Positions 39,798-50,163 of a DNA stretch of 64,000 nucleotides are shown piece by piece. This stretch comes from Paractinoplanes tereljensis (lineage in GTDB: Bacteria; Actinomycetota; Actinomycetes; Mycobacteriales; Micromonosporaceae). The stretch's first letter is position 1. Every line of letters begins with the position of its first letter. Under the pieces are notes generated by a model. That model was not told the origin of the DNA, searched no databases, and saw only the letters and a list, made by a program, of their open reading frames with translations. The position numbers and the translations under genes are program-made. The stretch is taken from NCBI RefSeq assembly GCF_016862435.1, contig NZ_BOMY01000022.1, positions 1-64,000 of the forward strand, written 5' to 3'.

Positions 39798-40745
39798 TTA
39801 CGCCAGGCAATACTTCGGCGCCTCGCTGAGGTTGTCCTTGGTGATCAGGCTGATCTTGATGTTCGCGATCTTGTCGGCCTGACCCTCGTTGAGCAGGGTA
39901 AGTGTGTTCTTGACGGCCAGCTGGCCGATGTCGGTGGCCGAGTTGGCGACCGTCGCGGAGAACTTGCCATCCTTCACCGCGGCCAGGCCCGCATCGGTGC
40001 CGTTCGCCGTAACGATCTTGACATCTTTGCCGGCCGCTTGGAATGCCTGGTAGGCGCCGAAGGCCATGTCCTCGTTCGCCACGAACGCGTACTTGAGGTC
40101 GGGGTGGGCCTGGATCATGTTCTCGGCGACGTCCTGCGCCTTGGCCCGGTTGAACATGCCCGGCTGGTTGGCGACCACCTTGACGTTGGCCGGCAGGGCG
40201 CCGGTGAACCCGGCCGACATCAGGTCGCTGGCGGCGCCGGGGGCACCGGCGATCACGCCCGCCTCGACCTCGGCCGAGCCGGCGTCCTTGGCGATCCAGC
40301 CCGCGTCGAGCGCGCCGAGGGCCTTCAGGTCGACCACCACGGCGCCGAGGATGTCGGTGGTGTCGGAGGTGATCACCGAGGTCATGAAGATCGGGATGTT
40401 GGCGCTCTTGGCCTTGGCGATGTCGTTCTTGAGCGCGTCGACGTTCACCGTCTGCACGATCAGCGCGCTGACGTTCCGCGAGATCATGTCCTCGATGTTG
40501 GAGAGCTCGGCGGCCGGGTCCTGCTTCGAGTTGGCCGTGATGACCTTGGCTCCCTCGGTGCTCGCCTCACTTTCGATCGCCTTCTGCAGGCAGGTGTGGA
40601 ATTCGGTGGTGGCGCCGTTCACGAATCCGAGGGTGACGCTTTTCTTTTCCGTGCTGCTGCCGGCGGCGGAATCGTCGCTGCACGCACTGAGCGAGGCAAT
40701 TCCAAGGGTGGCCGCGAACAGGGCCGGAAGAAGTTTATTAGACAT
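39798..40745 (-). CDS. Ribose-type ABC transporter substrate-binding lipoprotein
   Basis: A 315-residue protein with lipobox SLSAC. It is a type-1 periplasmic-binding fold: SVTLGFVNGATTEFHTCLQK, the hinge segments VSALIVQTVNVDALKNDIA and YAFVANEDMAFGAYQAFQAA. It delivers a sugar or other small ligand to the permease encoded upstream. Given the neighbours, an aromatic or polyol ligand is conceivable; the sequence does not show which. Confidence 0.92.
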   Translation of the reverse strand: MSNKLLPALFAATLGIASLSACSDDSAAGSSTEKKSVTLGFVNGATTEFHTCLQKAIESEASTEGAKVITANSKQDPAAELSNIEDMISRNVSALIVQTVNVDALKNDIAKAKSANIPIFMTSVITSDTTDILGAVVVDLKALGALDAGWIAKDAGSAEVEAGVIAGAPGAASDLMSAGFTGALPANVKVVANQPGMFNRAKAQDVAENMIQAHPDLKYAFVANEDMAFGAYQAFQAAGKDVKIVTANGTDAGLAAVKDGKFSATVANSATDIGQLAVKNTLTLLNEGQADKIANIKISLITKDNLSEAPKYCLA

Positions 40746-40782
40746 GGCTCCATTGCCTTCCATAAAAAGAGAATTGGGGGAT

Positions 40783-41754
40783 TCAGTGCCGGCGTCGTTG
40801 CAGGAGATTCGCGATGGCCGCGATCAGCAGCACGGCGCCGACCGAGATCTGCTGGTAGTAGCTGTTGATCTGGAGCAGGTTGAGCACGTTGGCGACCACC
40901 CCGAGCAGCAGCACCCCGAGCACGGTGCCGAGCACCGTGCCCTTGCCGCCGGCCAGCGAGGTGCCGCCGATGACCACCGCCGCGACCGCGGTGAGCTGGA
41001 GCTGCAGCCCGCCGGTGCCCGGGCTGCTGGCGCCGAGCCGGGCCAGCAGCATGATCCCGGCCAGCCCGGACAGCGCCCCGGCCAGGCCGTAGAGCAGCAG
41101 CTTGTCCCGGGACACGTTGATTCCGGACAGCCGGGCCACGTCCTCGTTGCCGCCGATCGCGAACGCGTCCCGGCCGAACGTGGTGTACCGCATCACGAAG
41201 GCGATGACGGCGAGCACCACGATCGCGACGATCAGCAGGTGGGGCAGGCCGAACGTCTTGCCGATGCCGAGCGGGGAGAGCTGGTCGTCGATCGAGACAC
41301 TGAGTCCGTTGATGACCAGCAGCGCCACCCCGTCGAGCAGGGTCGCGGTAGCCAGCGTCGCCACGAACGGCGCCACCCCGGTGAACGTAACCACCACCCC
41401 GTTGACCAGTCCGATCACGGTGGCCAGCAGGATCGCCGCGACAATGGTCAGCCAGATCGACTGACCGTGCGCGAACATCTGCGCCGCCACCGCGGTGGTG
41501 ACCGCGACGTTGCCGCCCATCGAGAAGTCCATGCCGCCGGCCGTCATCAGCAGGGTCAGCCCGGCCGCGATCACCGCGACCACGCTGACCTGGCGCAGCA
41601 CGTTGAGCAGGTTGTTGGTGCTCAGGAACGAGTCGGTGCGCAGGCCGGCGAACACGACGATGGCGACCAGCACGAGCAGCAGGCCACCGTGGGCGAAGCC
41701 GCGGGGAAGCACGCGGCGGCGGGTCGCCACCGGCGCCGTCAGGGTCGTTGTCAC
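40783..41754 (-). CDS. Ribose-type (RbsC-like) ABC transporter permease
   Basis: A 323-residue permease starting at a GTG that overlaps the ATPase stop by 4 bp (GTGA). It has about nine or ten membrane helices. The family block is present: LMTAGGMDFSMGGNVAV, FVATLATATLLDGVAL, AIGGNEDVARLSGINVSRDK and VVIGGTSLAGGKGTVLGTVL. It forms the importer with the adjacent ATPase and binding protein. Confidence 0.93.
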   Translation of the reverse strand: MTTTLTAPVATRRRVLPRGFAHGGLLLVLVAIVVFAGLRTDSFLSTNNLLNVLRQVSVVAVIAAGLTLLMTAGGMDFSMGGNVAVTTAVAAQMFAHGQSIWLTIVAAILLATVIGLVNGVVVTFTGVAPFVATLATATLLDGVALLVINGLSVSIDDQLSPLGIGKTFGLPHLLIVAIVVLAVIAFVMRYTTFGRDAFAIGGNEDVARLSGINVSRDKLLLYGLAGALSGLAGIMLLARLGASSPGTGGLQLQLTAVAAVVIGGTSLAGGKGTVLGTVLGVLLLGVVANVLNLLQINSYYQQISVGAVLLIAAIANLLQRRRH

Positions 41755-43250
41755 GAGATCGCTCCTCCCAGGGCGACGGCGACGAGCTCGTCGCGGGTGA
41801 TGCGGTCGATGTCGTACTCGGCGATGGCCCGGCCGTCGCGGACCACGACGACCCGGTCGGCCAGCCGCATCACCTCGTCGGCGTCGCTGGAGGCGAGCAG
41901 GACGGCCACGCCGTTGGTGGCGAGCGCGTCGACCAGGGTGTGAATGTCGGCCATGGCGGCGATGTCGACGCCGTTGGTCGGGTCCTCCAGCAGGCAGGCG
42001 ACCGGTTCGGTGCCGAGCCACTTGGCCAGCAGGACCTTCTGCTGGTTGCCACCGGAGAGCAGGCCGACCGGCGGGTTCGGGCTGAGGGTGACGACCCGGT
42101 AGTCGTCGCGCAGCGGGGCGGCCCGCCGGGCCAGCCGGTCCCGGCGGTGCAGGCGGCGGCGATCGAGGCGGTCCCGGGCGAGCATCAGGTTCTCGTCGAC
42201 GGTCAGCTCGGGGATCAGGCCGAGACGCCGGCGGTCACCGGTGACGCACCTCAGTCCACTATCGAGTGAGCGGGCGACCTTTCCGAACGGGATTCTCTTG
42301 CCGGCCACTTCGAGGTGCCCGCGCTCAGGCCTGCGCCGCCCGGAAAGCAGGTCGAACAGACGGGACTGGGCGTCGCCGGCCGGGCCGAGGACCGCCACCA
42401 CCTCGCCTTTGCGGACTTCCACGGTGAGGTTCTCGATGAATCGGCCGTCGGCAAGGCTTTCGATCTTGAGTCCCGTGACCGATTTATCGGATTTGCGCGA
42501 TGGCCGCGTGGACACCACATCCCGGCCCACCATGCTGCGGACCAGGTCGGTCTCGTCGGTCTCCTTGGCCAGGCCGGACCAGACCACCCGGCCGTCCCGC
42601 AGCACGGTGATCCGGTCGGCCAGGGCGAGCACCTCGGAGATGTGGTGCGAGATGAACACGACCGCCACCCCCGACTCGCACAGCCGTCGCACCAGGGCGT
42701 GGATCTGGGCGGCCGCCTCGGCGCCGAGACAGGCGGTGGGCTCGTCGAGGATCAGCACCCGGCCGCCGCGCCGCACCTCACGGGCCACCTCGACCATGGT
42801 CTGCTCGGCCACGGTCAGGTCGCCGGCGAGCGCGTTCACGTCGACGTCGATGCCGAGGTCCCGCAACGCCTGCCGGGCCAACTTCCCGATCAAATTCCAA
42901 CGGACCAATGAGGTACGGGTGGGCAGGTCGCCGAGCATGATGTTCTCGGCGACGGTCAGCGTCATGACCAGTTCCCGGCGCTGCGGGACGGTGGCGATGC
43001 CGAGCTTGCGAGCCTTGCGCGCGGTCATCGGCCCGGCCGCGGTCCCGCCGATCTCCAGTACGCCGTCGTCCGCGTTCTGCGCGCCGGAGAGAATGCGGAC
43101 CAGCGTCGATTTGCCGGCGCCGTTCATCCCCATCAGCGCGTGCACCTCGCCCGGAATCAGGTCGAGGGAGACGTCGCGCAGGGCCACCGCCCCGCCGAAG
43201 CTCTTCGAGATCCCCCGGGCCCGGACTACCTCAGTCCCGGGTGCCGTCAT
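41751..43250 (-). CDS. Ribose-type (RbsA-like) duplicated ABC ATPase
   Basis: A 499-residue protein with two nucleotide-binding domains. Domain 1 has Walker A GMNGAGKST, a signature-like LTVAEQTMVEVA, Walker B VLILDEPTACLG and switch His in FISHHISE. Domain 2 has a degenerate Walker A (GPAGDAQSR), as usual in this family, signature LLSGGNQQKVLLAKWL and an altered Walker B: LLEDPTNGVD, where Asp-Glu has become Glu-Asp. The start overlaps the CMD-like gene by 20 bp. Confidence 0.92.
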   Translation of the reverse strand: MTAPGTEVVRARGISKSFGGAVALRDVSLDLIPGEVHALMGMNGAGKSTLVRILSGAQNADDGVLEIGGTAAGPMTARKARKLGIATVPQRRELVMTLTVAENIMLGDLPTRTSLVRWNLIGKLARQALRDLGIDVDVNALAGDLTVAEQTMVEVAREVRRGGRVLILDEPTACLGAEAAAQIHALVRRLCESGVAVVFISHHISEVLALADRITVLRDGRVVWSGLAKETDETDLVRSMVGRDVVSTRPSRKSDKSVTGLKIESLADGRFIENLTVEVRKGEVVAVLGPAGDAQSRLFDLLSGRRRPERGHLEVAGKRIPFGKVARSLDSGLRCVTGDRRRLGLIPELTVDENLMLARDRLDRRRLHRRDRLARRAAPLRDDYRVVTLSPNPPVGLLSGGNQQKVLLAKWLGTEPVACLLEDPTNGVDIAAMADIHTLVDALATNGVAVLLASSDADEVMRLADRVVVVRDGRAIAEYDIDRITRDELVAVALGGAIS

Positions 43251-43818
43251 CGTCCACTCGCCGGTAGCCGCGGATATCGGGGAACGGCGGCTTCTTGTCC
43301 GCCTGCAGGTCCACCTGGAACGCGTTGAGCAGCATGCCGAGCATGGTGAAATTGCCGAGCGCGCCGACCGTGTCGACAAGTCCTTCGGCCCCGAAATACT
43401 CACGGGCCCGCTCGAAGGTGTCGTCCGCGACGAAATGGTCGGCCAGCAATTCCTGGCAGAACTGATAGAACGCGTCGTCCTGCGGGTTGTCGAACACCGG
43501 CGTCCGGTGCTCGGCGATCGCCTCGATCGCCGCGACCGGGATGCCCTCCTCGATCGCCTTGGCGACGTGCGCGTTCCACGAGTACTGCGCGTCGCGGTGC
43601 CGGGCCGCGATCAGCAACGCCAGCTCCCGCAACCGCAGCGGCAGGCTCGATTCGAACCGGCAGAACGCGCCGAGCGCCTCGACCTTCTCGCACAATTCGG
43701 GGCTCTGGATCCAGACCTGGAAAGGCCCGCGAACGGCTCCCCGCCGCCCGGCGATTCGGGCGCTGATCTCCTGCTGCCGTTCGGTCATCGCGTCCGGCTT
43801 GATGACGGGAAGTCTCAT
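43231..43818 (-). CDS. AhpD/carboxymuconolactone decarboxylase-like protein
   Basis: A 195-residue all-helical protein: RLRELALLIAARHRDAQYSW is the CMD core, with NAHVAKAIEEGIPVAAIEAI after it. The CxxC pair of peroxidase members is absent, so it is not an AhpD-type peroxidase. It may bind or transform a ring-fission lactone. It is the first gene of the importer operon, which joins uptake to a catabolic role. Confidence 0.87.
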   Translation of the reverse strand: MRLPVIKPDAMTERQQEISARIAGRRGAVRGPFQVWIQSPELCEKVEALGAFCRFESSLPLRLRELALLIAARHRDAQYSWNAHVAKAIEEGIPVAAIEAIAEHRTPVFDNPQDDAFYQFCQELLADHFVADDTFERAREYFGAEGLVDTVGALGNFTMLGMLLNAFQVDLQADKKPPFPDIRGYRRVDDDGTRD

Positions 43819-43887
43819 CGACGACTAACCCCTTGCCTTGTGATCCCGCGCACTCGGGTTGACTGTTCGCAGGACCGTAACAACGGG

Positions 43888-43920
43888 GTGGTAGGCCACC
43901 ACAGGTCGTTGAGCGCAACG
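43888..43920. promoter_or_regulatory. Candidate operators in the divergent CMD/cupin promoter region
   Basis: GTGGTAGGCCACCAC (43888-43902) and CGTTGAGCGCAACG (43907-43920) are two adjacent interrupted palindromes in the 159-bp gap between divergent genes. The second has LysR-like symmetry. Binding is unproven. Confidence 0.4.
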
Positions 43921-43977
43921 TAAGGCTGCACTTCTCGTATCGCTGATCACCCTGCCCGCGGGCATAGCCTCGAAGCC

Positions 43978-44388
43978 ATGACGGTGATCATCAAGGCAGC
44001 AGACGTACGGGTTCTCGACCGCGGCGGTTCGGTCGCCACCACGCCCCTGGTCACCACCACGTCGACGGCCGGCGAGAACCGGATCACCAGCGGGATCAGC
44101 GTCTACCCGGTCGGCACCGGCGCCCCGATGCACTCGCACAACTGCGACGAGCACGTGACGATCCTGGACGGTTACGCCGAGGTTCTGGTCGAGGGCGTGG
44201 TGACCCGGCTCGAACGCTTCGACACCACGTACATCCCGTCGCCGATCCCCCACCTGTTCCGCAACGCCGGCGGCGTACCCCTGCGGATTTTGTGGGTTTA
44301 TACGTCCGGAACCGTGACGCGGACCTTCACCGACACCGGTGTCACCGTGGAGCACCTGTCCGCGGCTGACCAGATGGTGCGCGACTGA
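43978..44388 (+). CDS. Cupin-domain protein
   Basis: A 136-residue single cupin. Motif 1 [20 protein letters not shown] supplies two His and a Glu for a metal. Motif 2 is around [19 protein letters not shown]. It is divergent from the CMD-like gene and probably belongs to the catabolic region as a metal-dependent enzyme or ligand-binding protein. Its end overlaps the hybrid kinase end by 47 bp. Confidence 0.88.
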
Positions 44389-46327
44389 GGGCCTCGTGCA
44401 GTTTGTGCAGCAGGTCGGTGGACGCGAACGGCTTCTCCAGGAACGGGATGTCCGAGTCCAGCACGCCACTGCTGCCCAGCAGCCCGTTGCTGTAGCCCGA
44501 CATGTAGACCACCGGCAGGCCCGGCTGCCGCTCGTGCACCAGCTCGGCCAGCCGCGGCCCGGACATCTCCGGCATGATCACGTCGGTGAGCAGGGCGTCG
44601 CAGCCCTTGTCCAGGTAGAGCTGAAGCCCCTCGGCGCCGGTCGACGCGGCCAGCACCCGATAGCCGTTTCCGGTCAGGATGCGATGCACGACCCGGGCCA
44701 GCGGCGCCTCGTCCTCGACCACCAGGACCCGTTGCCCGTTGCCCTTGGGCGGCACCATCAGCCGGGTGCCGGTGCTCGCCGGCCCGGCCGATTCGGTGGC
44801 CAGCGGCAGGTAGATCCGGAAGGTGGTGCCCACGCCCAGCTCGGAGAACACGTTGATGCTGCCGCCCGCCTCGGCCACGATGCCGTACACGGTGGCCAGC
44901 CCCAGCCCCGTACCCTTGCCTCGGGGTTTGGTGGTGTAAAAAGGCTCGAAGATGTGCGTCGCGACCTCGGCCGACATGCCCTCGCCGGTGTCACTGACCT
45001 GAATCCGGGCGTACGGCCCGGCGGCCACCGACGGCTGCATGTTGATCTCCTGGCCGTCCAGCTCGGCCTCGTCCGCCTCGATCACCAGGGTGCCGCCGTC
45101 CGGCATCGCGTCCCGCGCGTTCAGCGCCAGGTTGAGCAGCACCTGCTGCAGCTGACCCGGGTCGCCGTGCACGATCAGCGCCTGCTTCGGCTGCCGCGCG
45201 AACAGCGCGATGTCCTCCCCGATCGTGCGGTCCAGCATCGCCCGGACCTCGGCGATCGCGTCCCGCAGATCGATGTCCTGCGGCTGGATGGTGTCCCCGC
45301 GGGTGAAGGTGAGCAACTGCCGGGTGAGGTTCATGGCCCGGTCGGCGGCGGTCCGCACATGCTCCAGATCGGCGCGCACGGCCGGATCCGCCGAGGCTTC
45401 GGCCGCGAACTCGGTGTAGTTCACGATGATGGCGAGGATGTTGTTGAAGTCGTGCGCGACACCGCCGGCCAGCTTGCCCAGGCTCTCCATCCGCTGCTGC
45501 TGGTGGGTGCGCTCCTCCAGGGCACGCGCGCGGTCCGCGGCCTCCTTGGCGGCGCCGATGTCCCGGGCCACCACCGACGTACCGGTGACCTCGCCGCTCG
45601 TCTCGCGCACCGCGGCCAGGCTGATCGAGAGCTCGATCGGCGAGCCGTCCTTGCGGATCCGGCGGGCCTCGTAGCTGATGTTCCGCTCCCCCTCGCGGAC
45701 CCGGGCCTGCACGTCCTGCTGCTGCTCCTGACCGGGCTCGTCAGTGAGCACCCCGACCGAGCGGCCGATCATCTCGTCGGCGGTCCAGCCGAACATCTGC
45801 TCGGCGCCGGCGTTCCAGGCGGTCACGATGCCGTACAGGTCGATGCCGATCAGCGCGGCGTCGGTGTGCTCGACCACCGCGGTCAGGGTGACCAGGTGAC
45901 TTTCGGCCACGTCGCGGGCGGCGCGCTCCCGGGCGGCGGACTCGTCCAGGCGGCGCTGCTCCCAGGGGGAGACGTACATGGCGCCCTTGCCGAGCAGGAC
46001 GCCGTAGCCTCGGCGCAGGGTCCAGTAGTAGACGCCTACGGCCGCGGTCAGCAGGTCCCAGATGGCGGTGGGCCAGGACTCGTTCATCATGTGGCCGAGG
46101 TGGGTGCCGCCGGTGCCGCCGGTGGCTGCGGTGATGCTGCGGTAGGCGAGGAACGCGTGCAGGCCGTGGCCTACGGCGCAGCTGAAGAAGATCAGCGCGG
46201 TGGCTACGGCCAGCTTGTTGGTGCGCAGCTGGCCGGCGTTCCTCACCGGCACCACGATGGCCACGGTGATCGCCGCGTAGGCCACCATGATCACTAGGTT
46301 GCCGATCAAGAAAAGCTGTTCCGGCAC
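44342..46327 (-). CDS. Hybrid histidine kinase with ethylene-receptor-like N-terminal domain
   Basis: A 661-residue protein. The chosen GTG ([20 protein letters not shown]) has AGGA 5 bp upstream. Three N-terminal membrane helices resemble the ETR1 ethylene-binding domain: Asn10, Cys50 and His54 sit at exactly the spacing of ETR1 Asp25, Cys65 and His69, and helix 3 ([13 protein letters not shown]) also aligns. A PAS domain, HisKA ([20 protein letters not shown]), HATPase_c ([22 protein letters not shown]) and a C-terminal receiver ([13 protein letters not shown]) follow. It is orphan in position. An open frame upstream to 46468 runs through a long palindrome and is unlikely to be translated. 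Confidence 0.9.
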
Positions 46328-46389
46328 GATCGTCCTATCGGTCGCGCCTTGGAATCGCTGAGCGCTGGTCGGCTCGCTTGCGCTAGGAC

Positions 46390-46462
46390 GATTTTGGCCG
46401 GGGTGACCCAAGACGAGCGGTGAATCATCTAGTGCTTGTCTTGGGTCACCCCGGCCAAAATC
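46390..46462. repeat. Perfect 25-bp inverted repeat with 23-bp spacer
   Basis: The arms 46390-46414 (opening GATTTTGGCCGGGGTGACCC) and 46438-46462 are perfect inverted complements. The structure lies 63 bp upstream of the hybrid kinase start, in a gene-poor area. It may be a small palindromic mobile element, a terminator for something now lost, or a leader hairpin. Confidence 0.8.
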
Positions 46463-46789
46463 TTGCATGGTCGTCCGTTGCGGGCAGGACTTTGGTTTCT
46501 CGCTGCTGGCTGCCTGATCGGGGTGGGCGGTCCCCTCCGGGTTTGTGGTCTGGCTGCCGCGCTGCGGTTGGGGTGGGCGCGTCAGTTGGGCAGGCCGGGC
46601 TGGGTGGTGGGTCCTGGGAACATTCCGCGCCGGTTGCGCTGGTGGGACATCAGTCGGTTGGGCCTGGGACTCCCGGTTTACGGCCTACGAGTCCCGTGCG
46701 GGGGTAGAGCACCGGGTTCACGCGGCTGATGGTGACTGTCGATCATCGCTGGGCGTTCGCCGGGGATTCTTGGTGCTCACGAGGTCGGT
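46463..46789. other. Gene-free stretch, GT-rich
   Basis: I see no convincing gene. Open frames here have no ribosome site, no recognisable domain and a base composition unlike the neighbouring genes. With the palindrome before it and two broken genes after it, this looks like a decayed or rearranged segment. Confidence 0.5.
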
Positions 46790-46890
46790 ATGTTGGCGGC
46801 CGTGAGTCGGCGGGCGGTGCGCAACGACGGGCCTGTGCCGGTTTATGTCCAGATCGCCGATTACGTCGGTGCGGACATCGCTGGGTCAGC
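46790..46890 (+). pseudogene. N-terminal fragment of a GntR-family regulator
   Basis: A GTG/ATG-started frame reads SRRAVRNDGPVPVYVQIADY then VGADIAG, the characteristic opening of a short GntR winged-helix regulator. It then stops matching any family and enters antisense DNA of the ankyrin-type gene. The rest of the regulator is missing, so the junction near 46890 marks a deletion or rearrangement. Confidence 0.7.
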
Positions 46891-47452
46891 ACGCAGCCGC
46901 CGGGTATCTCGGTTACGCCTACGAGCAGCAGGTCGTTCATCTCTGAGAGCCAGTTCCAGTCGTCCTCGACGCCCGGCTCGGGCTCCTCATCGACCTCGAC
47001 GTCGTAGTGGGCCAGCAGCTCGTCCTCGGTCATCGGGGTGCCGTTGAGTCGGCGGATCGCCTCGGGTGCGTCGATTCCGGCTACGGCTAGCAGGCCGATC
47101 CCTTCGAAGTGGTCGACCTGCAGGCGTTCGGCCAGCTCGGCGGCCAGTGCTACGGCCTCCCGCTCGGCTGGGGTCAGCTTCACGCCGGTGGGTGCGGGGC
47201 CGAACAGGTCGGGCTCGGGGCCGGCTAGGTTCAGGCGGCCGGGTGACCAGCCGGCCGTCATCGGCTGCCACGGGTTCGCGCCTGCGGTCGCCAGGGCTCG
47301 CGCGTTGTCGTGGCGGCGGGAGTGGACCGCTGACCACAGTGCGGAGCGGCCGTCGGACCGGGCATCGACATCCTGCTGCTCGTCGGTCAGCTCGGGTGGT
47401 CGCACGAGCGGTGGCGGGCGTGGGCGGTGGACTGCTTGATCCGTACCCTCAT
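46891..47452 (-). pseudogene. Decayed ankyrin-repeat-type gene
   Basis: ATG at 47452 begins MRVRIKQSTAHARHR but hits a stop after 21 codons. A different frame then carries SDGRSALWSAVHSRRHDNAR, ATAGANPWQPMTAGWSPGRL and VAGIDAPEAIRRLNGTP, resembling an actinobacterial ankyrin-domain protein. The match ends at PGGCVLTQ near 46891, where the GntR fragment begins on the other strand. So it has an N-terminal frameshift or deletion and a lost C terminus. Confidence 0.68.
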
Positions 47453-47467
47453 CGTTTGAATTTGATG

Positions 47468-47752
47468 TCAGGAAGGACGGCCGCGTTGGATGCGGTTGAT
47501 TTCCTGTTCGATGCGGTCCTCGTCGAGGCTTGACGACGAATAGATCGCCCAGATGTGGAACACCAGGCCGATGCCCCAGCCGAGGATCGACCAGAGCGGC
47601 CAGAAGAACTGGTCGGGGGTGTACGCCCACCACACGATTACCTGGATCAGATTGGCCAGCAGGTAGATCAATACGTGGGCCTGGACCCCTCGTTTGCGGT
47701 TCAGCTGTTGGATGGCTCTCGCCCGTACCGGATCCTGGCTGCTTGCATTCAT
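47468..47752 (-). CDS. 2TM-domain membrane protein
   Basis: A 94-residue protein: a short basic N-terminal stretch (RARAIQQLNRKRG), two hydrophobic helices (AHVLIYLLANLIQVIVWW and LWSILGWGIGLVFHIWAIY), and an acidic then basic tail (DEDRIEQEINRIQRGR). This matches the small 2TM-domain family. The role is unknown. It lies 15 bp upstream of the decayed ankyrin-type gene. Confidence 0.82.
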   Translation of the reverse strand: MNASSQDPVRARAIQQLNRKRGVQAHVLIYLLANLIQVIVWWAYTPDQFFWPLWSILGWGIGLVFHIWAIYSSSSLDEDRIEQEINRIQRGRPS

Positions 47753-47893
47753 GATTTTGTCCGTATCTCTGGATTTCTTTGCCGCCGAAACTAGAGCGCC
47801 GCACTGGACAGGCCGTGAACGGGCGAATTCAGTCGCTGTTCACAGCCGGCTCATAGCGTCCGGTCCTGACGATCCGATCAGGAGGACGACGTG

Positions 47894-48700
47894 ATGCGCA
47901 GATATAGATCGAAGCTGGCCGTGGCGACCGTGGCGGTCGCGGCCTTGAGCCTGTTCGCCGCGCCGGCGGCCGACGCCCAGCCGAACCGGCCGGCGAAGCC
48001 GACCATCGTGCTGGTCCATGGTGCGTTCGCCGACAGCAGCGGCTTCAACGCGGTCATCGAGCGGCTGCTGGCCCGCGGCTATCCGGTGGTCGCGGCGCCC
48101 AACCCGCTGCGCGGGCTCACCTCCGACGCCGCCCAGGTCAAGGCGGTGCTGGACCACATCGACGGGCCGATCGTGCTGGTCGGACACTCCTACGGCGGTG
48201 CGGTGATCTCGGCCGCCGCCACCGGGAACGCCAACGTGAAGGCGCTTGTCTACCTGGCCGCCTTCGTCCCGGAGACCGGGGAGAGCGCCCAGCAGCTGGC
48301 CGGGCAGTTCCCGGGCAGCACGGTCGGCGAGTCACTGCTCCCGGTGCCGCTGCCGGACGGCCAGGTCGACCTCTACATCAATCCCAAGGTCTACCACGCC
48401 AACTTCGCGGCGGATGTGCCCGCCCGGGACGCCGCCCTCTACGCGATAACCCAGCGGCCGGCCACCGGCGCCGCACTGGGCGAACCGGCGGCCGGACCGC
48501 AGGCGTGGCACACCATTCCGAACTACAACCTGATCAGCGGGGCCGACCGGATCATCCCGCCGGCGGCGCAAGAATTCATGGCCCGCCGGGCCGGCGCCAA
48601 GGTGCAGGTCGTACGGGGAGCCTCGCACTTGATCTTCGTTTCTCAGCCCCGGACGACCGTGGACTTCATCGAGCGGGCGGCGCGCGAGACCGTCTCTTAG
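47894..48700 (+). CDS. Secreted alpha/beta hydrolase (EstC-like esterase)
   Basis: A 268-residue protein. ATG at 47894, with a GTG three bases earlier also possible, follows an AGGAGG site. The signal peptide ends near AADA. Oxyanion region VLVHGAFADSSGFN, nucleophile VGHSYGGAVISAA, catalytic His in GASHLIFVSQP. It resembles plant/bacterial salicylate-esterase or pyrethroid-hydrolase-like enzymes. The natural ester is unknown. It is convergent with the glycosidase gene, overlapping by 4 bp. Confidence 0.88.
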   Translation: MRRYRSKLAVATVAVAALSLFAAPAADAQPNRPAKPTIVLVHGAFADSSGFNAVIERLLARGYPVVAAPNPLRGLTSDAAQVKAVLDHIDGPIVLVGHSYGGAVISAAATGNANVKALVYLAAFVPETGESAQQLAGQFPGSTVGESLLPVPLPDGQVDLYINPKVYHANFAADVPARDAALYAITQRPATGAALGEPAAGPQAWHTIPNYNLISGADRIIPPAAQEFMARRAGAKVQVVRGASHLIFVSQPRTTVDFIERAARETVS

Positions 48701-50163
48701 GTCAGGGCGACGTCGTCGTACCAGACGGTTCCGGTGTTGTCGCCGCACTTGAGGTGGAGTTGGACGCCGGCCGCGCCGGCCGGGGCGACGGTGTCCACGA
48801 AGAGTTTGGTCCAGGTGGTGTTGCCGATCGGCAGGCGGTTCGAGGTGTTCTGGCTGATCCAGGTGCCGTTGATGTCGAACCAGCTCAGCGCGATCTCGGT
48901 GATGCCGGTGGCGGCGGTGCCGCGCGCGTACGCCTCGGCGTGCCACGCGGCGCCGGGCTGGACCGGCGTGATGGGCGAGGTGAGCAGCGAGGGCAGGTTG
49001 CTGCCGACCCGGGTGGTGCCGTAGAAGCGGGCCGACTGGGTGCCGGTGCGGGGCATGTCGGTGGTGATCAGAGCGGAGCCGGCCTGCGGCAGGTATTGCC
49101 GCCACGGCGAGTTGGCCGCGGTGGCCTCGAAACCCAGGTTGAGAATGCTGTTCGGGATGCTGCCGGTCGTCCAGGCCGGACCGACCACGGAGGCGCTGAA
49201 CTTCGCGGTTCCGTCGGTGCGGTAGAGGCCGTACTTGTATTGGGCCGGCTGGGTGGAGACCGTGGAGTTCGACGGGATGGCGCCGGAGGCGAAGTCGTTG
49301 AGGATCCACGGTGCCACCGAGCCGACGCCCGCCTCCTGCGCGGCGCGGAAGACCCGGGCCAGGTAGGCGCCCTGCTCGCCCTCGGTGGCCGCGAGGGTGC
49401 TGAGCCCGGTCTCGCCGACGACCACCGGGTCGGGGGCGACCGCGGCCTGGGCGCGGCGGATCTCGGCGAGGGACCGCTCCGAGGCGCCGTAGAAGTGGAA
49501 GTCGTAGTAGTCCAGCGGGGTGGTGCCGAGCTGCGACTTGAGGCTGGTCATGCCGGCGGCACCACTGACGCCGTCGACGGTCAGGGTCAGCGGCATGGCC
49601 GGCGCGGTGGCCCGGATCGCGGGGATCAGCTGGCGGGCCCAGTTGATCGCGGCGGAGTCGCTCGGCGAGATCTCGTTCTTCAGCTCGACGGCGATCACCC
49701 GCGGGTCGTCCACGTAGGGAGACAGCAGGCTCAGGGCCCAGATGACGCTGTTGTCCACATCGGTGTAGCCGTTCCACCAGTCGAACAGCGTCAGCTTGAC
49801 GGTCAGGCCGCGGGTGTCGGCGATGCCGATGAACTGGCTGAGCTTGGCGGTGTAGGCGGCGGTCGGCGTCGGATAGCCGAACGTCTGCGGGAAGACGATG
49901 ACCCGCACGGTGGTCGCCCCGAGGGTGGCCGCCTTGGCCAGATCGGTGTCGATCCGGACCGGGTCGAAGCTGGTCCACATGTTCGTCCAGCCGGCGTTCG
50001 AGGGGTAGTAGTTGATGGTTTTGGCGGTCTGGACGGCGGCCATCCGGGTCGCCAGGGTGGGTGCGGCGGCGGTGGTCGCGGCGTGGGCCAGGGAGGCCGG
50101 AAGCATCGTGCTGAGCAGCAGGACGCCGGCCACGGCAATGGCACGGAGGCGTAGCTTGCGCAT
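48697..50163 (-). CDS. Secreted GH5-like glycosidase with C-terminal carbohydrate-binding module
   Basis: A 488-residue protein with a signal peptide ending LAHA. The TIM barrel (about 45-320) has acid/base Glu in IAVELKNEISP and nucleophile Glu in PVVVGETGLS, as in clan GH-A. The C-terminal ~150 residues (ILNLGFEATAANSPWRQYLP to GTVWYDDVALT) form a CBM-like beta-sandwich. Likely substrates are cellulose, mannan or xylan. The 339-bp gap upstream contains a 15-bp palindrome that may be an operator. Confidence 0.85.
   Translation of the reverse strand: MRKLRLRAIAVAGVLLLSTMLPASLAHAATTAAAPTLATRMAAVQTAKTINYYPSNAGWTNMWTSFDPVRIDTDLAKAATLGATTVRVIVFPQTFGYPTPTAAYTAKLSQFIGIADTRGLTVKLTLFDWWNGYTDVDNSVIWALSLLSPYVDDPRVIAVELKNEISPSDSAAINWARQLIPAIRATAPAMPLTLTVDGVSGAAGMTSLKSQLGTTPLDYYDFHFYGASERSLAEIRRAQAAVAPDPVVVGETGLSTLAATEGEQGAYLARVFRAAQEAGVGSVAPWILNDFASGAIPSNSTVSTQPAQYKYGLYRTDGTAKFSASVVGPAWTTGSIPNSILNLGFEATAANSPWRQYLPQAGSALITTDMPRTGTQSARFYGTTRVGSNLPSLLTSPITPVQPGAAWHAEAYARGTAATGITEIALSWFDINGTWISQNTSNRLPIGNTTWTKLFVDTVAPAGAAGVQLHLKCGDNTGTVWYDDVALT

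Follow-up and report, generated by a model that had tools for sequence, protein, structure and literature searches.

A Divergent ETR1-Type Membrane Domain in a Hybrid Histidine Kinase of Paractinoplanes tereljensis, and Its Possible Role in Copper(I) Sensing

The window that was analyzed is a stretch of 64,000 nucleotides from Paractinoplanes tereljensis (assembly GCF_016862435.1, contig NZ_BOMY01000022.1, positions 1 to 64,000). It carries a gene for a hybrid sensor histidine kinase. The gene and its domains are as follows.

44342..46327, minus strand: gene for the hybrid sensor histidine kinase, 661 aa from a GTG start (translation and Pfam domains)
45974..46327, minus strand: ETR1-type membrane domain at the N terminus, residues 1-118 (27.7 bits with Pfam ETR1_N when residues 1-109 are scored by themselves; hhalign against canonical domains; AlphaFold2 model)
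45557..45880, minus strand: PAS domain, residues 150-257 (Pfam PF00989, E 1.4e-16)
45293..45481, minus strand: HisKA dimerisation domain, residues 283-345, with phospho-acceptor His292 (Pfam PF00512, 31.2 bits against a cut-off of 26.9; HDFNN motif)
44798..45166, minus strand: HATPase_c kinase domain, residues 388-510 (Pfam PF02518, E 7.6e-23)
44399..44728, minus strand: receiver domain, residues 534-643, with Asp582 in TDVIMP (Pfam PF00072, E 4.4e-16; motif)

The PAS, HisKA, HATPase_c, and receiver domains all exceed their Pfam cut-offs. The phospho-acceptor histidine, the N and G boxes, and the receiver aspartate are all present, and the protein is a hybrid histidine kinase. The first-pass annotation had placed a hybrid kinase with an ETR1-type membrane domain here, and the open reading frame, the Pfam domains, and the profile homology described below agree with it. 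It also likened the PAS, kinase, and receiver domains to those of ethylene receptors. These domains resemble the ones in ordinary bacterial hybrid kinases, and this says nothing about ethylene. The top NCBIfam scorers for the kinase are CckA-type models, yet these fall below their own cut-offs, and among the best 25 of 137 models only a generic PAS model passes.

An AGGA-type site precedes the GTG start, and in several relatives, L008, L017, and L018 among them, a Met stands in the corresponding position or next to it. A longer frame from the ATG at 46468 exists, but its extra 5′ stretch contains an inverted repeat at 46390-46462, just upstream of the kinase, with 29-base arms that are 97% complementary and a 15-base loop. 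A second arm pair with the same spacing and three mismatches per arm occurs elsewhere in the genome, as does one single arm. The repeat looks like a rare dispersed palindromic element. At the other end, the last 47 bases of the kinase gene (44342-44388) are shared with the 3′ end of a cupin ORF on the opposite strand, which converges on it.

Eight flanking ORFs (39801-50163) were scanned. Three are sugar-type ABC transporter ORFs. The others encode a carboxymuconolactone decarboxylase family protein, the cupin, an alpha/beta hydrolase, and two proteins with no match at E <= 1e-4. No recognisable copper or ethylene gene was found among the eight. For the hybrid-kinase form, no neighbour cluster was present in more than 11 of 80 loci, apart from clusters exemplified by Nocardioides-type loci. 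These clusters come from rough ORF calling, with some wrong frames, over at most 4 kb on each side of the best 80 of 124 loci. The neighbours of the hybrid-kinase form are weak evidence on the ligand because none recurs widely among relatives.

Residues N10, Y17, C50, and H54 of the window protein occupy the places of ETR1 D25, Y32, C65, and H69. The 40-residue spacing between N10 and C50 equals that between D25 and C65, with no gap. The places first given to Asn10, Cys50, and His54 are thus confirmed. A gap-free match to ETR1 across helices 1 and 2 had also been claimed. It stands as regards spacing; the identity is at chance level, as the ungapped alignment has 9 identical residues over 57 positions and five shifted registers have 8. 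BLASTP of the window protein against ETR1 gave an E of 0.52. Pairwise likeness to ETR1 was dropped as evidence of homology, since it is no better than chance.

Profiles gave a different result from the pairwise comparison. Pfam ETR1_N (PF25487) scores 27.7 bits with the N-terminal domain alone and 24.7 bits with the whole protein, against a curated cut-off of 27, and the family in general scores near or below this cut-off. The match spans profile positions 5-69 of 97, which are helices 1 and 2 only, and in some relatives it extends to profile positions 82-95. An alignment of the window protein with 80 relatives (A5; the best 80 of 124 confirmed places in named genomes) was also scanned. All 81 rows match ETR1_N at E <= 0.01 (best 3.1e-9), and any further Pfam family is confined to a single row at most. 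The check with an ETR1 N-terminal profile, as proposed in the first-pass annotation, is thus significant at the level of the family. With hhalign, 110 family sequences were aligned with 16 canonical domains over 89 columns (94% probability, E 1e-7, score 45.4), with the same register across all three helices. The maximum score of 73 decoys was 24.0, these being column-reversed or locally shuffled rather than real unrelated membrane families. Runs with smaller sets gave E values of 2.9e-6 and 3.8e-6. Fifteen of the canonical domains came from plasmids, by way of the ETR1 sequence or three of its matches, and one (L154) came from the window's phylum. L055 and L168 are identical, so that 15 canonical domains are distinct.

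When a profile of 11 canonical domains was run on the genome that carries the window, the kinase was not recovered at E <= 1. Across 60 genomes this profile gave 16 places at E <= 1, of which only one (E 5.8e-4) was a known family member. Three weak ETR1_N matches from one genome (L161, L162, and L163; E about 3e-4 to 6e-4) were rejected, as by eye they are unrelated membrane proteins. An ETR1_N match of this size in a single genome is no proof of homology. Two other proteins with weak ETR1_N matches, L159 and L165, belong to another family of membrane proteins with several helices, in which the motifs AYFSMG and GIVHG occur. As read, they have a His and no Cys at the site.

The pairwise result, the miss by the canonical-only profile, and the chance matches of L161-L163 could all be taken to mean that the likeness to ETR1 is convergent or fortuitous. 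This is very improbable, given the real score against that of the decoys, the 81 of 81 rows that match ETR1_N and scarcely anything else, and the constant register through three helices. Homology was accepted because the profile-level evidence, unlike the pairwise evidence, is significant. The window domain is almost certainly a distant homolog of the ETR1 ethylene-binding domain, as judged from sequence profiles.

The extent of the family was explored through several searches. In 100 relatives' genomes, ETR1_N had matches at E <= 0.001 in 41, of which 40 were within the window's genus (n = 60, own genome included). The other 20 genomes of the genus had no match at this threshold. Matches above the curated cut-off were present in 24 of the 100. 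The 30 loci retrieved from this search constitute one family, and the window kinase is the sole ETR1_N match at E <= 0.001 in its own genome. A family profile found relatives in 20 of 296 class-level genomes and in 8 of 396 phylum-level genomes, own genome counted in each. An independent ETR1_N search of the 396 phylum-level genomes gave 12 with matches, including seven of those eight. A scan of named genomes with two patterns, one containing Cys and His, gave 124 confirmed places. The best 80 of these, which were retained, belong to Actinoplanes and its allies, Dactylosporangium, Virgisporangium, Nocardioides (with many members), Frankia, Pseudofrankia, Blastococcus, Pseudarthrobacter, and metagenome-assembled genomes, one of which is labelled Chloroflexi. 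A plasmid search with the window domain gave nothing at E <= 0.01.

In a tree of 15 canonical and 40 family rows, which was midpoint-rooted for drawing only, the two groups are split with a support of 100/100 by a very long branch. The family, as sequence comparison presents it, is a divergent, mainly actinobacterial, separate branch of the ETR1-type three-helix sensor domain. When the ETR1-type domains of the window protein and of two relatives were compared with NCBIfam, nothing matched at E <= 0.1. Among the listed titles and abstract openings of open-licence literature, no account of this actinobacterial branch was found.

The AlphaFold2 model of the N-terminal domain has three confident helices and weak loops (mean pLDDT 86.9). 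The three helices lie ahead of the output domains, as they do in ETR1-type receptors. The helices and the conserved residues are listed here; residue counts are from 94 non-redundant (90%) sequences, including the window protein, unless another number is given.

46238..46324, minus strand: helix 1, residues 2-30, taken as transmembrane (DSSP on the AlphaFold2 model)
46121..46216, minus strand: helix 2, residues 38-69, bearing C50, H54, and H57 (DSSP on the AlphaFold2 model)
46007..46075, minus strand: helix 3, residues 85-107 (DSSP on the AlphaFold2 model)
46298..46300, minus strand: Asn10, at ETR1 Asp25 (Asn in 132/135; 91/94 non-redundant, with Ser in 2 and Gly in 1)
46277..46279, minus strand: Tyr17, at ETR1 Tyr32 (94/94)
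46268..46270, minus strand: Ile20, at ETR1 Ile35 (94/94)
46178..46180, minus strand: Cys50, at ETR1 Cys65, a copper ligand in ETR1 (93/94; the exception is Ser in L153)
46166..46168, minus strand: His54, at ETR1 His69, a copper ligand in ETR1 (94/94)
46157..46159, minus strand: His57, an extra invariant His at ETR1 position 72 (94/94; His in 2/16 canonical domains)
46055..46057, minus strand: Asp91 of the helix-3 WD motif, at ETR1 Lys91 (Asp in 91/94; register from hhalign)

Loop 1 is taken to be inside and loop 2 outside because the kinase is cytoplasmic. By the positive-inside rule, a loop rich in Arg and Lys is expected on the cytoplasmic side. This topology agrees with the rule, as Arg and Lys make up 20-21% of loop 1. 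In loop 2, which joins helix 2 to helix 3, His reaches 7.0% and Met 4.6%, compared with 2.3% and 2.0% after residue 130. The Met excess hardly goes beyond the Met content of helix 1 (4.0%). A search of solved structures with the window domain alone gave nothing usable, the single match being a histone construct at E 0.14. The same search with a profile of canonical domains gave none at E <= 1, and Foldseek against PDB and BFVD gave none at E <= 0.001.

The residue counts above were preferred, together with a 40-sequence (70%) set, because counts from the 135 members include overlapping strains. In addition to the residues listed, I46 is kept in 93 of the 94 and F47 in all 94. Position 21, at ETR1 Pro36, can be T, M, S, A, C, V, L, or F. 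L153, a phylum-level protein, has Ser in place of Cys50 and retains both His residues. N10 is missing from L148, and both N10 and D91 are missing from two Blastococcus proteins of one genome. Because several searches had used Cys and His, a further search was made with only the 27 columns of helix 3 in 394 class-level genomes. It gave 25 places in 24 genomes at E <= 4.4e-11, with the next match at 7e-4. All 25 carry N10 and C-x3-H-x2-H (by pattern; two by eye). Twenty of the 24 genomes were already known from the class-level profile search and four are new. The 25 exclude four weaker places with E values between 7e-4 and 0.035, two of which look unrelated on reading. Conservation of Cys50 and His54 among orthologues, on which the earlier reading had been made to depend, is therefore borne out.

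Seven ETR1 residues are required for ethylene binding, a number that is given, with some of the identities, in PMC11819568 and PMC6586836. Four of the seven (Y32, I35, C65, and H69) are kept in the family, and three (D25, P36, and I62) are replaced. Asp is at position 25 in none of the 135 family members and in 15 of 16 canonical domains. Pro36 is found in 0 of 94 as opposed to 14 of 16, the canonical exceptions being L065 and L154. Position 62 is Phe in 94 of 94 and Ile in 16 of 16. Position 91 is Asp in 91 of 94; among the canonical domains it is Lys in 10, Gln in 4, Arg in 1, and Asp in 1, so that Lys91 is not universal there either. The first-pass annotation was right to point to Asn for Asp25 as a difference. 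It is one of several, since the positions of P36, I62, and K91 have changed as well. The window protein is not filed as an ethylene receptor because of the residues found at these four positions, and it may still work like one.

Asp25, Cys65, and His69 are described as the essential copper site of ETR1 in PMC12643061. According to a passage of PMC11819568 that leaves an Asn substitution unspecified, mutation of D25 or C65 abolishes ethylene binding in ETR1, and the same paper reports modelling that places D25 in a bond with K91. In the 135 family members the 25/91 pair is N-D in 131 and N-E, S-D, S-M, and G-A in one each. In the 16 canonical domains it is D-K in 10, D-Q in 4, D-R in 1, and S-D in 1. 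Neither D-D nor N-K occurs among these 135 and 16 domains. The two positions thus appear to change together between the groups, which is suggestive only, as at most a handful of evolutionary events would be involved. L154, from the window's phylum, and L065, from a Deinococcus plasmid, are of canonical type, without Pro36 and with His at position 72. They mix both types and may resemble intermediates; the tree puts them on the canonical side.

Among bacteria, Synechocystis and Azospirillum have known ethylene receptors, and putative ones are described from other phyla (PMC11819568). AzoEtr1 of Azospirillum (L062) has a similar arrangement of a three-helix N-terminal domain followed by PAS and histidine kinase domains, and it is identical to the family at the Y32, I35, C65, and H69 positions. 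However, it has D25, P36, I62, and K91, where the family has N, varied residues, F, and D. It also has an HGxC stretch before helix 1 that is absent from the window protein, and it lacks the extra invariant His of the family. AzoEtr1 is described without an attached receiver (PMC11819568), whereas the window kinase has one. Plant ETR1 shares with the window protein the gap-free spacing of helices 1 and 2, the Cys and His copper ligands, and the hybrid kinase with a receiver. It differs in having GAF where the window protein has PAS (PMC6586836) and in its full set of seven ethylene-binding residues. MHYT domains are proposed copper-binding gas sensors of bacterial signalling proteins, and they resemble the reading put forward below in that copper bound within the membrane would detect a gas. 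No MHYT domain was found in a Pfam scan of the N-terminal domain at E <= 1.

The window protein is probably a membrane-bound hybrid kinase whose divergent ETR1-type input domain is a Cu(I) sensor with a rearranged site. We put the probability of this at roughly 0.55, from sequence and model. C50, H54, and probably H57 would hold one Cu(I) within the membrane, with H57 standing in for the part of Asp25. A swapped polar pair, N10 of helix 1 with D91 of helix 3, takes the place of D25 with K91 in ETR1. A small Cu(I)-binding ligand, or altered copper loading, would change the packing of helices 1 and 3 by way of N10 and D91. This change would then pass through the PAS linker to autophosphorylation at His292, from which the phosphoryl group would move on to Asp582 in the receiver. 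Ethylene may be the ligand. Since the pocket has changed, a different one, for example carbon monoxide, acetylene, or copper itself, is at least as likely. The function may also have been altered altogether, given the single very long branch between the family and the canonical domains.

Two other explanations are special cases of this reading, so that the likelihoods do not add up to one. The protein could be a genuine receptor for plant ethylene that still works with the substitutions in place, in line with the first-pass annotation. The homology and the retained equivalents of C65, H69, Y32, and I35 favour this, as does the replacement of P36 in canonical-type L065 and L154. Relatives are also present in Frankia and Pseudofrankia (L126 and L140), two genera that occur in the root nodules of plants, although the species of Pseudofrankia concerned bears the name asymbiotica. 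It is nevertheless unlikely, as ETR1 itself loses ethylene binding when D25 or C65 is mutated (PMC11819568) and three of its seven residues are replaced across the family, with Asp at the K91 position. Also against it, many relatives are Nocardioides. Plant ethylene sensing is unsupported. The protein could instead be a sensor of copper itself, in which Cu(I) loads the domain and the kinase signals how much copper is available, no gas being involved. Three ligands (Cys/His/His) would complete the coordination of copper further than Cys/His does, and loop 2 has a moderately high His content. Against this, the eight flanking ORFs that were scanned include no recognisable copper gene, and the hybrid-kinase form has no widely recurrent neighbour. 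A copper sensor of this kind is rated slightly less likely again than an ethylene receptor.

It could also be that the fold was kept and copper was not. C50, H54, and H57 would then bind another metal or haem, or be structural, and the signal could be redox, light, or membrane state. The Ser in place of Cys in L153, with both His residues kept, and the changes at several other ETR1 site residues fit with this. It appears rather improbable, since the strict spacing and the near-complete retention of Cys and His match the ETR1 copper site. A rearranged Cu(I) site remains the preferred reading.

The output domains vary, as is typical of an input domain that has been shuffled. The N-terminal domain lies ahead of PAS-HisKA-HATPase-receiver in the window protein and L039, of HisKA-HATPase-receiver in L153, and of PAS-HisKA in L149, where the locus end cuts the gene. 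L148, also cut by its locus end, has PAS-GGDEF and a weak partial EAL match, which suggests a cyclic-di-GMP output. A short form of 187-239 aa, as read, accounts for 29 of the best 80 named loci and is of Nocardioides type (L109-L145). Its tail was read as HisKA_3-like; L150 is just below the HisKA_3 cut-off and L111 has no match. The phospho-His place is Asn in all 29 loci (21 by pattern, eight by reading) and His in L150-L152. The Asn-bearing tail is possibly a non-phosphorylatable relay. A receiver-like motif was found just downstream in each of the 28 loci with enough sequence (27 by pattern, L139 by reading); L144 was left out, as its sequence ends too early. Two of the downstream proteins were scanned, and both are receiver-HisKA-HATPase proteins.

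Taken more broadly, copper sensors of the ETR1 fold could tentatively comprise a second type, found mainly in actinobacteria and represented by the family. In it, a His of helix 2 would have taken over from helix-1 D25 the third polar contribution to the copper site, and the acidic partner would now lie on helix 3 and no longer on helix 1. The signal would be something other than ethylene, and several outputs would be served, including a compact two-gene system of the Nocardioides kind. If this is true, membrane copper sensors would form a wider family, and the ethylene receptor of plants would be just one specialised member. A sister family bears on the questions of what makes ETR1-type domains select ethylene and what role they had before plants put them to use. 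As it keeps the copper ligands in a rearranged site, it offers the swaps N10D, D91K, H57N, T21P, and F47I. If ethylene is bound, actinobacteria including Actinoplanes, Frankia, and Nocardioides could sense a plant hormone. If it is not, the original signal of the family becomes approachable.

A membrane protein with conserved His residues (AHxxHY and GVHAAVGPxHL) lies directly upstream of the short protein in 26 of the 29 loci by eye. The copy in L111 (3253-3963) has no Pfam or NCBIfam match. It may belong to the same sensor system as the short ETR1-type protein.
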